From positions 1,835,115 through 1,899,114 of the forward strand of contig NZ_JAANCO010000001.1 of NCBI RefSeq assembly GCF_011326725.1: a stretch of 64,000 bases of DNA. Reading direction: 5' to 3'. Below, in pieces: positions 11,630 to 14,904 of this stretch. Every line of letters starts with the position of its first letter. Within the stretch, counting starts at the first letter, position 1. The notes beneath the pieces are model-generated. The model was not told the origin of the DNA and ran no database searches. It worked only from the letters and a program-made list of their open reading frames with translations. The DNA is from Microbacterium excoecariae. Lineage in GTDB: Bacteria; Actinomycetota; Actinomycetes; Actinomycetales; Microbacteriaceae. A program made the translations under genes and the position numbers.

Positions 11630-12226
11630 TCACGGAACCGGGAGGGTCCGTGGCCGCCACGCCTCGCGGCGGGCCTCGAACTGCGCGATCTCGTCCTGGT
11701 GACGCAGGGTCAAACCGATGTCGTCGAGCCCTTCGAGGAGCCGCCACCTAGTGTAATCGTCGATCTCGAACGCGGCCGTGAAGTCGCCGATCGTGGCGGT
11801 TCGCGCCACGAGGTCGACGGTCATGGAGGTGCCCGGCTGCGCGTCGATCGCGGCCCAGATCTTCGCCAGGTCGTCCTCGGCAATGACGCCCGCGACGAGG
11901 CCCTGCTTGCCCGAGTTGCCCCGGAAGATGTCCGCGAAGCGCGGCGAGAGCACCACCCGGAAGCCGAAGTCGCGAAGCGCCCACACGGCGTGCTCGCGGC
12001 TGGATCCCGTGCCGAAGTCGGATCCCGCCACGAGGATCGACGCGCCCGCGAAAGACGGCTGGTTGAGGACGAAATCCTCGTCCTGGCGCCAGCTGTAGAA
12101 CAGGGCGTCGTCGAAGCCCGTCTTCGTCACCCGCTTGAGGAACACGGCGGGGATGATCTGGTCGGTGTCGACGTTCGAGCGCTTCAGCGGCGCGGCTACG
12201 CCCGTGTGGGTCGTGAACTTTTCCAT
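11630..12226 (-). CDS. leuD: 3-isopropylmalate dehydratase small subunit
   Basis: Swivelling-domain subunit of isopropylmalate isomerase in leucine biosynthesis. [22 protein letters not shown] is the usual start region (DTDQIIPA motif), and [13 protein letters not shown] is the conserved substrate loop. Length is 198 residues. Its ATG is 2 nt after the leuC stop, so the two subunits are co-translated. Confidence 0.96.
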
Positions 12227-12227
12227 G

Positions 12228-13733
12228 TCAGGCCTCCGCTCCCGTCATCGCGGGCTCATCGATCGGTTCCAGGTCGGACGGGCTCGAGAGCGTCCCGCGC
12301 ACGGCGGTCGCGGCGGCCACCAGGGGCGACACGAGGTGCGTGCGGCCCCCCTTGCCCTGGCGCCCCTCGAAGTTACGGTTACTCGTCGACGCGCATCGCT
12401 CCCCCGGCTCGAGCTGGTCCGGGTTCATGCCGAGGCACATCGAGCACCCCGCGAAACGCCATTCGGCGCCGAACGCCTCGACGATCTTGTCGATTCCCTC
12501 GGCCTCGGCCTCGAGGCGCACGCGGGCGGACCCGGGCACCACCATGACGCGGACGCCCTCCGCCTTGGTGCGGCCGGCAATGATCGACGCGAAAGCGCGC
12601 AGGTCCTCGATCCGGCTATTGGTGCACGACCCCATGAACACGGCGTCGACCGGGATCTCCTTCATGGGCGTCCCGGGCGCGAGGTCCATGTACTCGCACG
12701 CGCGCTCCGCCGCCGCCCGCTCGTTGGGGTCGGCGAAGGTCTCCGGCCGCGGCACGGCGTCGCTGAGCGAGACCCCCTGGCCCGGGTTCGTGCCCCACGT
12801 CACGAACGGCTCGAGCTCGTTCGCGTCGATGAAGACCTCGGCGTCGAACGCGGCGCCCTCGTCGGTCGGCAGCGTCTTCCAGTACGCCACCGCGGCGTCC
12901 CAGTCCTCGCCCTGCGGCGCGTGCGGGCGGCCCTTCACGTAGTCGAAGGTAGTCTCGTCCGGCGCGACCATGCCGGCGCGCGCGCCCGCCTCGATCGACA
13001 TGTTGCAGATCGTCATGCGCCCCTCCATCGAGAGGGCGCGGATCGCGCTGCCGCGGTACTCGAGCACGTAGCCCTGGCCGCCGCCCGTGCCGATCTTCGC
13101 GATGACGGCGAGGATGATGTCCTTCGCCGTCACACCCGGCTTCAACTCGCCCTCCACCGTGATCGCCATGGTCTTGAACGGCTTCAGCGGCAGCGTCTGG
13201 GTCGCCATGACGTGCTCAACCTCGCTCGTCCCGATCCCGAACGCGAGCGCGCCGAAGGCGCCGTGCGTCGAGGTGTGACTGTCGCCGCACACGACCGTCA
13301 GGCCCGGCATCGTGAGCCCCAGCTGCGGGCCGACGACGTGCACGATGCCCTGCTCCGCGTCGCCCAGCGAGTGCAGGCGCAGGCCGAACTCCTCGGCGTT
13401 CCGGCGCAGAGTGTCCACCTGCGTGCGGCTCGTGAGGTCGGCGATCGGCTTGTCGATGTCGAGCGTCGGGGTGTTGTGGTCCTCGGTCCCGATCGTGAGG
13501 TCCAGCCGCCGGGGGGTGCGACCCTCGGCGCGGAGGCCATCGAACGCCTGCGGGCTCGTGACCTCGTGCACGAGGTGCAGGTCGATGTAGATCAGGTCGG
13601 GCTGGCCGTCCTCGCCGCGGACGACGACGTGGTCGTCCCACAGCTTCTCGGCCAGGGTGCGGGGGTGGTCCGGGATCCGGATATCGGCGGTCATGCTGGT
13701 CTCGTGCTCCTTCACGTCGTCGGTGTCGGCCAT
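12228..13733 (-). CDS. leuC: 3-isopropylmalate dehydratase large subunit
   Basis: Aconitase-type [4Fe-4S] subunit that isomerises 2- to 3-isopropylmalate. Cluster ligands are visible in [13 protein letters not shown] and [14 protein letters not shown], and [15 protein letters not shown] is the conserved active-site stretch. I give the ATG at 13733 ([12 protein letters not shown] 7 nt upstream), 501 residues. The ATG at 13694 ([16 protein letters not shown] 12 nt upstream) gives 488 and is also reasonable. It is preceded by a leucine-rich leader and hairpin. It is transcribed away from a terminator that isolates it from terC. Confidence 0.95.
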
Positions 13734-13742
13734 CGACAAACT

Positions 13743-13780
13743 CCGCGACGGGAAAGGCCTACGAGGAGAGCCCGTCGCGG
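13743..13780 (-). promoter_or_regulatory. Hairpin in the leuCD 5' leader overlapping its ribosome-binding site
   Basis: CCGCGACGGG and CCCGTCGCGG form a perfect 10-bp stem with an 18-nt loop. On the mRNA the 5' arm lies inside the putative leader peptide, just after its leucine codons. The 3' arm ends in the GG of the GGAG site for the leuC ATG at 13733. A ribosome stalled on the leucine codons would cover the 5' arm and free the site. Confidence 0.5.
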
Positions 13781-13809
13781 CAGCTAAGGAGAAGCCGGAA
13801 GCACCGCAC
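13759..13809 (-). CDS. Putative leucine leader peptide of the leuCD operon
   Basis: A 16-codon frame starting GTG at 13809 encodes [16 protein letters not shown] and stops at TAG. It has three consecutive leucine codons (CTT CTC CTT) and a fourth further on. An extended -10 box (TGC then TACTGT, 13821-13816) ends 6 nt before the GTG, so the peptide would be translated from a leaderless mRNA, as in known actinobacterial amino-acid leaders. It lies 25 nt upstream of leuC. The gene is too short to prove by composition alone. Confidence 0.5.
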
Positions 13810-13829
13810 GACACGACAGTAGCAGAATG

Positions 13830-13865
13830 CCCAGGCCCGGCCGCGCGCGAGCGGCCGGGCCTGGG
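13830..13865 (-). terminator. Intrinsic terminator after terC
   Basis: A perfect 15-bp inverted repeat (13830-13844 with 13851-13865) around a 6-nt loop lies 31 nt beyond the terC stop. There is no U-tract, which is common for high-GC actinobacterial terminators. It separates terC from leuCD. Confidence 0.75.
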
Positions 13866-13896
13866 CACAATGCGCACCCCGGCAGGGTGCGAGCCG

Positions 13897-14904
13897 TCAC
13901 TTCTGGCGCGTGGACGCCTCCGAGGTGACCTCGGCGGCACCCCGCGCCGGCACGAGGCTCGCGAGCGTGGCCACGAGGAGGGATCCGAGGATCACGCCGA
14001 GTGAGACCCAGTTGCTGATTTCGGGCGCCCACTCGACGTGCTCGCCCCCGTTGATGAACGGCAGCTCGTTGACGTGCAGGGCGTGGAAGAACAGCTTCGC
14101 GCCGATGAACGCCAGGATGAACGCGACGCCGTACTTCAGGAAGCGCAGCTTCTCGAGGAGATCGCCGAGGAGGAAATAGAGCTGGCGCAGCCCCATGAGC
14201 GCGAACAGGTTGGCCGCGAAGACGAGGAATGGATCCTGCGTGATCCCGAAGATCGCCGGGATCGAGTCGATCGCGAAGACGAGGTCCGTCACGCCGATCG
14301 ACACGAACACGATGATCATGGGCGTGAGGACCTTCTTGCCGTCGACGACCGTGCGGAGCTTGGCGCCGTCGTAGCTGTCGTGAATCGGGATGAAGCGGCG
14401 CAGCACCCGGACGATGAAGGTCTCGGTCTGGGCGTCGCTCTCCTCTGCCTCCCGCTCGAACGCCTGGCACGCGGCCGTGTAGACGAGGAAGGCGCCGAAG
14501 ATGTAGAAGATCCAGCTGAAGTTCTCGATGAGGGCCGCGCCCGCGAGGATGAAGGCGGCGCGTAGCACGAGGGCGATGAGGATGCCGACCATCAGCACCT
14601 CCTGCTGATAGCGGCGCGGCACCCCGAACTGCGCCATGATCAGCACGAAGACGAAGAGGTTGTCGATCGACAGGCTGTACTCGGTGAGCCAGCCGCTCAC
14701 GAACTCGACCGCGTGGTCCGCGTCGCCGATGAGCCACAGCACGACCGCGAACACGAGCGCGAGCGCGACGTAGAACACGACCCACAGCGACGACTCGCGC
14801 GTGGAGGGGATGTGCGGGCGCTTGAGGATCAGCAGCAGATCGGCGACCAGGATGACGACGAGGACGGCGAGCGAGCCGACCTCGAACCAGACGGGAATGC
14901 CCAC
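13897..14904 (-). CDS. TerC/Alx-family integral membrane protein, probable Mn2+ exporter
   Basis: A 335-residue polytopic membrane protein of the TerC family, with about eight hydrophobic segments. Family signatures are [14 protein letters not shown] and [14 protein letters not shown], each carrying the paired acidic residues that bind metal. Relatives (MntP/Alx/TerC) export manganese or insert metals into secreted proteins. GTG start at 14904 with AAAGGA 6 nt upstream. The gene lies directly behind a yybP-ykoY manganese riboswitch, which strongly supports a manganese role. Confidence 0.88.

Follow-up and report, generated by a model that had tools for sequence, protein, structure and literature searches.

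A LEU-Element-Type Leader Ahead of leuCD in Microbacterium and Other Microbacteriaceae

Introduction

In transcription attenuators of the trp/leu type, the presumed sensor is the ribosome on the regulatory codons. Among the Actinobacteria, the closest described system is the LEU element, which was reported in 2005 by Seliverstov et al. upstream of leuA in most Actinobacteria (PMC1262725). In the part of that paper drawn on here, the element has a leader peptide with Leu codons, a hairpin and a pseudoknot, there is no obvious terminator, and the Leu codons are able to pair with the Shine-Dalgarno sequence. In S. lividans, the leader peptides leuL1 (leuA) and leuL2 (leuS) are reported to be transcribed leaderless; leuL1, which reads MRFGLLLLSCRGEGL, has no typical Rho-independent terminator in that account, and a hairpin and a uridine stretch follow leuL2 (PMC8079986). 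The presumed leader peptide before leuA of C. glutamicum contains four consecutive Leu codons and is treated, in the cited part of the work, under transcriptional attenuation (PMC4046766). Control of leuCD has been ascribed to a DNA-binding protein of the IclR type: NdgR and its orthologs are reported to be adjacent to leuCD and to act as its regulator (PMC4340878).

We describe here a leader of this kind that stands before leuC in a 64,000-nucleotide stretch of the Microbacterium excoecariae genome, referred to below as the window. It shares with the LEU element the leader peptide with Leu codons, the hairpin and pseudoknot and the lack of an obvious terminator, and in the window its Leu codons are complementary to the Shine-Dalgarno sequence. 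Its peptide resembles leuL1, and like the C. glutamicum leader it carries consecutive Leu codons. The presumed sensor is also that of the trp/leu-type attenuators, but no intrinsic terminator was found in positions 13300-14200 of the window. The target is what differs, being leuC and not leuA or leuS; and the same operon that NdgR/LtbR regulates in other Actinomycetes would here be under the control of an RNA instead of a protein. Because it is located before leuC, and not before leuA as first described, we regard the leader as a related variant of the LEU element. Elements of this kind are largely known, and a leuC target is previously unreported in the literature that was found: among the mainly open-licence papers listed by the search, none described a leader peptide or LEU element ahead of leuC, and a word search of the text of Seliverstov et al. 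returned neither leuC nor leuCD (PMC1262725). The scheme had been called an uncommon one when the sequence was first annotated; given the similar element before leuA in most Actinobacteria (PMC1262725), it is less unusual than that.

Layout of the leuC Leader

The features of the locus, in the order of transcription, are as follows.

13816-13821, minus strand: -10-like promoter box TACTGT, 6 nt upstream of the leader GTG (sequence)
13759-13809, minus strand: leader-peptide frame, putatively leaderless, GTG start, TAG stop (sequence and genus comparison)
13786-13794, minus strand: Leu codons CTT CTC CTT (codon counts, complementarity, predicted fold)
13771-13780, minus strand: hairpin 5' arm CCGCGACGGG, within the leader frame (sequence, alignment, covariation)
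13756-13759, minus strand: loop half of the pseudoknot, GGCC, sharing the last base of the leader stop codon (alignment, permutation test)
13743-13752, minus strand: hairpin 3' arm CCCGTCGCGG (sequence, alignment, covariation)
13728-13731, minus strand: 3' half of the pseudoknot, GGCC (alignment, permutation test)
13707-13712, minus strand: likely leuC Shine-Dalgarno sequence AAGGAG (an SD-like string also precedes the leuC start in relatives)
12228-13694, minus strand: leuC, isopropylmalate isomerase large subunit, likely start ATG 13694 (profile search, relatives)
11630-12226, minus strand: leuD (open reading frame and its sequence, from which the name was judged)

The first-pass annotation had read a GTG frame of 16 codons with CTT CTC CTT and a further CTC, and a perfect 10-bp hairpin with one arm inside that frame, and both are there. 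The frame runs on the minus strand from GTG 13809 to TAG 13761-13759, and the additional Leu codon CTC is at 13770-13768. The hairpin pairs 13780-13771 with 13752-13743 and closes an 18-nt loop that contains the leader stop codon; four more base pairs, between GGCC (13759-13756) and GGCC (13731-13728), would form the pseudoknot. Since TACTGT ends 6 nt before the GTG, the transcript and the leader frame may begin together, a spacing that suits leaderless initiation of the frame. Downstream, leuC is identified by a profile match with an E value of 2.5e-220; elsewhere in the genome there are two weaker matches (E 6.8e-20 and 3.6e-6), both under the family cut-off. The leuD frame begins one base after the end of leuC.

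A scan of 13300-14200 returned no terminator-like or sigma-70-like site; a classical transcription attenuator, which would have an intrinsic terminator after the leader, was therefore rejected. A T-box or another cis-regulator of Rfam was rejected as well, because nothing of the sort was matched at the gathering score across the whole window, where the Rfam matches are four tRNAs only. Further upstream there is a perfect 17-bp GC-rich inverted repeat, TGCCCAGGCCCGGCCGC, with a 6-nt loop and without a T run (13828-13867). It separates the promoter of the leuC leader from the end of the gene further upstream, which looks TerC-like from its sequence, and is perhaps a terminator of that gene overlapping the -35 region.

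Conservation in the Genus

Fifty-nine Microbacterium genomes, including that of the window, were searched for leuC; one of them (G044) had no full leuC. The search gave 58 leuC loci, with 57 leaders read by a script and L059 as the 58th locus. L059, from a draft genome, is an additional and diverged leuC that has no element, while a leuC fragment on another contig of the same genome does carry it (113.8 bits). Counted in this way, the element is present in 58 of the 58 genus genomes with a readable leuC start, 57 by script and one by a model match. The script required a -10 box, a stop codon between the hairpin arms and an SD-like string before leuC, so these are partly selected features, and the presence of a TANNNT/TANNCT box at about the same distance upstream in 57/57 leaders has to be read with the box as a filter.

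The leaders start with GTG (37/57) or ATG (20/57), stop with TAG (36), TGA (18) or TAA (3), and differ in length, from 13 to 17 codons, by in-frame steps of 3 nt. The hairpin is paired at all 10 positions in 56 of the 57 leaders when G-U pairs are included, and in 42 by Watson-Crick pairs alone. The Leu codons are of an unusual composition. Among the 196 in the genus leaders, 105 are CTT, 78 CTC, 9 TTG and 4 CTG, as compared with 19 CTT, 619 CTC, 506 CTG, 24 TTG and 5 CTA among the 1173 Leu codons of 31 leuC genes. All 36 leuC elements read encode two adjacent leucines (LL), in frames that had been selected for a -10 box and for a stop codon inside the hairpin. A leader frame preceded by a -10 box was identified in each of these 36 elements, in 33/34 leuA elements of the family and in only 21/29 leuA elements outside it. 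The frame, the Leu codons and the hairpin are thus kept in close relatives. Loss of the frame or of the Leu codons there had been named as what would refute the initial proposal, and the comparison does not refute it; conservation gives good support to a leucine leader peptide before leuCD that has no intrinsic terminator.

Hairpin and Pseudoknot

Three alignments were used: A1 with 53 of the 57 leaders, A2 with 55 of the 57 after removal of identical stretches, and A3 with 99 loci chosen from those fetched. In the 55 genus leaders the hairpin is paired in 99.8% of cells, yet eight of its ten pairs are invariant. In the 99 leuA and leuC elements of the family and class it is paired in 99.3% of cells; five pairs are changed on both sides, as many as in 5 of 500 shuffles, and so are 59 cells, a number that none of the 500 shuffles attained. 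The covariation score of the hairpin is 0.218, against at most 0.086 when it is slid, and was reached by 0/500 shuffles, on an alignment that was itself fitted to the structure. Judged by these alignments, the hairpin shows compensatory changes.

The pseudoknot could not be treated in one fixed alignment register, which was dropped: loops of the AGGCC group pair one column away from those of the GAGCCC group, and this blurs the counts per column (86.4% and 78.6% of cells paired). For this reason a permutation test was used in its place, comparing the own loop with permuted 3' flanks. For the 99 elements none of 300 permutations was as good; separated by target, the count was 0/300 for the 63 leuA elements and 5/300 for the 36 leuC elements, relatedness being retained in all of these. 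The partners also change jointly, as in CTAAGCC/GGCTTAG, GACCGG/CCGGTC and TCGGCC/GGCCGA. The proposed pseudoknot is supported by permutation. The folding energy of single sequences is by itself not decisive for the predicted element, with z values of -0.97 and -0.44, and of -2.30 where promoter DNA is part of the folded stretch.

Kinship with the LEU Element

The genome of the window was scanned with a covariance model trained on 55 leuC leaders. Apart from the leuC leader, which as a training sequence is also matched, the model finds the leader of the genome's own leuA (74.6 bits, E 5.4e-15), the next match having an E value of 0.40. This leuA leader reads VRRFGLLLLICRDESS, has the same kind of hairpin and is a copy separate from that of leuC. 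One model thus detects the leuA and the leuC copies alike, and on this comparison the leuC leader is homologous to the LEU element ahead of actinobacterial leuA. A single duplication of the leuA copy was considered as the origin of the leuC copy; in the FastTree tree (99 elements, 106 columns) the leuA and leuC elements are intermingled, which speaks neither for nor against it.

Within the family, the model has matches in 144 of 150 genomes, with one match in 46, two in 85, and three or four in 13; the family search supplied 30 loci, of which 23 are leuA and 7 leuC. Ten family genomes with three or four matches were looked at, and seven of the extra matches precede a second leuA. This second, diverged leuA with its own LEU-type leader (L168, L171-L176; seven Microbacteriaceae genomes) is 53-57% identical to LeuA of the window genome.

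In the class, 263 of 296 genomes are matched, 14 of the 296 belonging to Microbacteriaceae. The 45 loci examined outside the family comprise 29 leuA, 5 leuB-like and 3 leuS-like targets, 2 leader-like matches whose downstream gene has no assigned name (L136, L142), 1 locus cut by a contig end (L115) and 5 that look like chance; leuC is the target of 0/45. The copy before leuC was thus found only in Microbacteriaceae in the samples examined, a difference from the LEU element as described in the cited part of PMC1262725. Matches rejected as chance-like are the weak ones at E 0.0017-0.01 (L145, L146, L148, L150, L151, L177-L179). The leuB-like targets (L129, L137, L138, L139, L147), all outside the family and named from sequence only, are preceded at 137-306 nt by leaders with Leu plus Ile/Val codons, e.g., MRFVLILRCRDGA. 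At L141, L144 and L149, related leaders stand before a leuS-like gene, as in the reported S. lividans leuS leader.

Distribution and the Regulator NdgR/LtbR

The distribution was followed in named leuC loci, of which the best 80 were taken from at least 596 candidates, so the sample is weighted to close relatives; loci were grouped into families by record names and the family of the genus, with Agrococcus and Rhodoluna looked up. Among these best 80, the element stands before leuC in 19 of the 27 Microbacteriaceae loci and in none of the 53 others. An NdgR/LtbR-like gene shows the opposite pattern: 51 of the 53 loci from outside the family (the exceptions are L219 and L239) have one on the other strand, upstream of leuC, and 0/27 Microbacteriaceae loci of the same best 80 have one beside leuC. 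The regulator was likewise sought in whole genomes. At E 1e-30 it was found in 0/86 Microbacteriaceae genomes and in 53 of 60 class genomes, the window's own being among the 60. The class matches have 55-94% identity; with a looser threshold, the best match in 19 genus genomes is an IclR-type protein of 36% identity (E 1.3e-22).

A possible history, to which we would give even odds, is that the ancestor of the Microbacteriaceae lost NdgR/LtbR and that a copy of the LEU element of leuA took over the control of leuCD. The swap is not universal, since 8 of the 27 family loci among the best 80 have neither the element nor an adjacent NdgR/LtbR. These eight (L191, L193, L197, L198, L201, L202, L205 and L206) are from Frigoribacterium, Curtobacterium, Salinibacterium, Agrococcus (two), Rhodoluna and two others.

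Leucine-Sensing Translational Attenuation as the Probable Explanation

We consider the leader to be best explained as an attenuator of the LEU-element type, placed ahead of leuCD instead of leuA, that senses leucine and acts on translation; its probability can be put at roughly 60%. The architecture is that of a short conserved frame whose consecutive Leu codons run into a hairpin with the stop codon in the loop. Transcription would begin at the leader GTG. When charged tRNA-Leu is plentiful, ribosomes would clear the leader frame quickly, and the freed stretch of Leu codons, CUUCUCCUU, which looks like an anti-Shine-Dalgarno sequence, would pair back onto the AAGGAG of leuC and hold down the translation of leuCD. 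Under leucine shortage, a ribosome that stalls on the Leu codons would cover CUUCUCCUU and leave the leuC site free. With its front assumed to be 15 nt from the P-site codon, a ribosome at the first Leu codon would end a median of 2 nt short of the hairpin, and the hairpin and pseudoknot could therefore remain folded during the stall. In the Microbacteriaceae, such RNA control would accompany the loss of NdgR/LtbR, which is beside leuC in most other Actinomycetes sampled.

With the leuC start at 13694, masking would have to come from a pairing other than the hairpin, e.g., that of the Leu codons with the Shine-Dalgarno sequence, and the evidence on this helix is divided. The Leu run CUUCUCCUU is complementary to AAGGAG (in the window, CUCCUU at 13791-13786), and the Leu runs consist of pyrimidines only in 52 of 57 leaders. 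The codon choice favours the helix, for none of 300 synonymous draws was as good. When partners were swapped between species, 26/300 swaps were as good as the own pairs by Watson-Crick pairing and 251/300 with G-U pairs included. By duplex energy the observed mean is -10.19, against -10.37 for swapped and -10.60 for synonymous partners, with 240/300 swapped and 191/200 synonymous sets as good or better; only 18 of the 57 leaders have a best Shine-Dalgarno partner that overlaps the Leu run. A covariation proof of the stem thus failed by duplex energy and by species matching, and only the codon choice is supportive. In the predicted fold of the window from the GTG onwards, CUUCU (13794-13790) pairs with AGGAG of the leuC Shine-Dalgarno sequence and the leuC start codon is unpaired; this fold has an ensemble share of 0.0037, and shuffles are equally stable (z -0.44).

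Modelling of the 57 leaders agrees with the direction of the proposed effect. A stall at the first Leu codon would lower the mean cost of opening the Shine-Dalgarno sequence from 4.96 to 3.57 kcal/mol, making it easier to open in 38 leaders, harder in 8 and the same in 11. The modelled cost is lower still, 3.08 kcal/mol, with the ribosome at the stop codon (46 easier, 4 harder), and in the window itself the predicted effect of the stall is small (3.42 to 3.23 kcal/mol). Two further points count against translational attenuation. One is the group of eight family loci that have neither element nor adjacent regulator. The other is earlier work on S. coelicolor, as cited in PMC1262725, in which mutations of the leuA leader had some effect that was inconsistent with classical attenuation.

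The masking stem, being without covariation support, leaves some room for a transcriptional mode of action, in which the position of the ribosome sets a stop by Rho or at a cryptic terminator between the leader and leuC, with the hairpin and pseudoknot acting as a pause or a shield. The cited part of PMC1262725 raises Rho-dependent attenuation as a suggestion for other leaders of Actinobacteria that have no terminators. Such a stop finds no terminator-like site in 13300-14200, by a scan that does not address Rho, and it does not account for a Leu-run/Shine-Dalgarno helix that is longer than for synonymous runs. We consider it unlikely, though the strongest of the competing explanations.

A lower chance still is given to the view that a regulatory protein binds the RNA fold, with the leader peptide in a secondary role. 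This is what Seliverstov et al. favoured for the LEU element of leuA, on their reading of the S. coelicolor mutants and with ML1624 as a candidate from phylogenetic profiles (PMC1262725, in the part cited here), and the strongly conserved hairpin and supported pseudoknot would fit it well. A pure protein-binding site would, however, need no constraint on the frame, and the frame looks constrained: GTG and ATG are swapped, lengths change in-frame by 3 nt, and LL is kept in 36/36 elements, in frames chosen by the script.

The Start of leuC

The masking of leuC had at first been attributed to the hairpin itself, whose 3' arm was thought to touch the leuC ribosome-binding site. That site would be GGAG 13744-13741, which straddles the end of the 3' arm and serves an ATG at 13733 that is in frame with leuC. 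The start at ATG 13694, whose AAGGAG at 13712-13707 stands 30 nt beyond the 3' arm in the window, is the likely one by comparison with relatives; ATG 13733 is less well conserved and may be a second start. In the four leaders most similar to that of the window, its site is ACG (L022), an out-of-frame ATG (L045) or TAG (L048, L057). Within 25 nt after the hairpin, 19 of the 57 genus leaders have an open in-frame start: in 13 of them it is a GTG or ATG at 8 nt, in 5 it is at 14-21 nt, and the remaining one is the window's. In all, 14 of the 57, the window among them, have it at 8-9 nt. The 13 with a start at 8 nt are L024, L029, L031, L033, L034, L038, L042-L044, L047, L051, L053 and L056. A second, hairpin-adjacent leuC start is thus possible in part of the genus.

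These 13 leaders, together with the in-frame ATG 13733 and the position of GGAG in the window, are what speaks for a hairpin arm that directly hides the ribosome site. Against it, 38 of the 57 leaders, including the four most similar to the window's, lack an open in-frame start within 25 nt, and all 57 have a leuC start 37-77 nt after the hairpin behind an SD-like string, which the script required. With the better-conserved leuC start lying 30 nt and more downstream, the direct blockade is doubtful and we regard it as improbable. A chance frame and hairpin without function, for which one could cite the unremarkable single-sequence folding energy of the leader, is refuted by the comparison, the element being kept in 58/58 genus genomes and in other Microbacteriaceae genera and being homologous to that of leuA.

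Implications for the Family

What was an observation in a single genome becomes, with these comparisons, an element of the family: leuC goes with NdgR/LtbR in most of the Actinomycetes sampled, and with an RNA element carrying Leu codons in most of the Microbacteriaceae sampled. The mechanism of the LEU element, i.e., whether it works through the leader peptide, a protein or Rho, has been a question for 20 years, and the natural variants of the leader, with their covarying hairpin and pseudoknot, render it testable. If NdgR/LtbR was indeed lost and a copied LEU element took its place, leuA and leuCD would be coupled in these bacteria to one tRNA-Leu signal, and a DNA-binding regulator would have been replaced by a leaderless, ribosome-sensing RNA attenuator.
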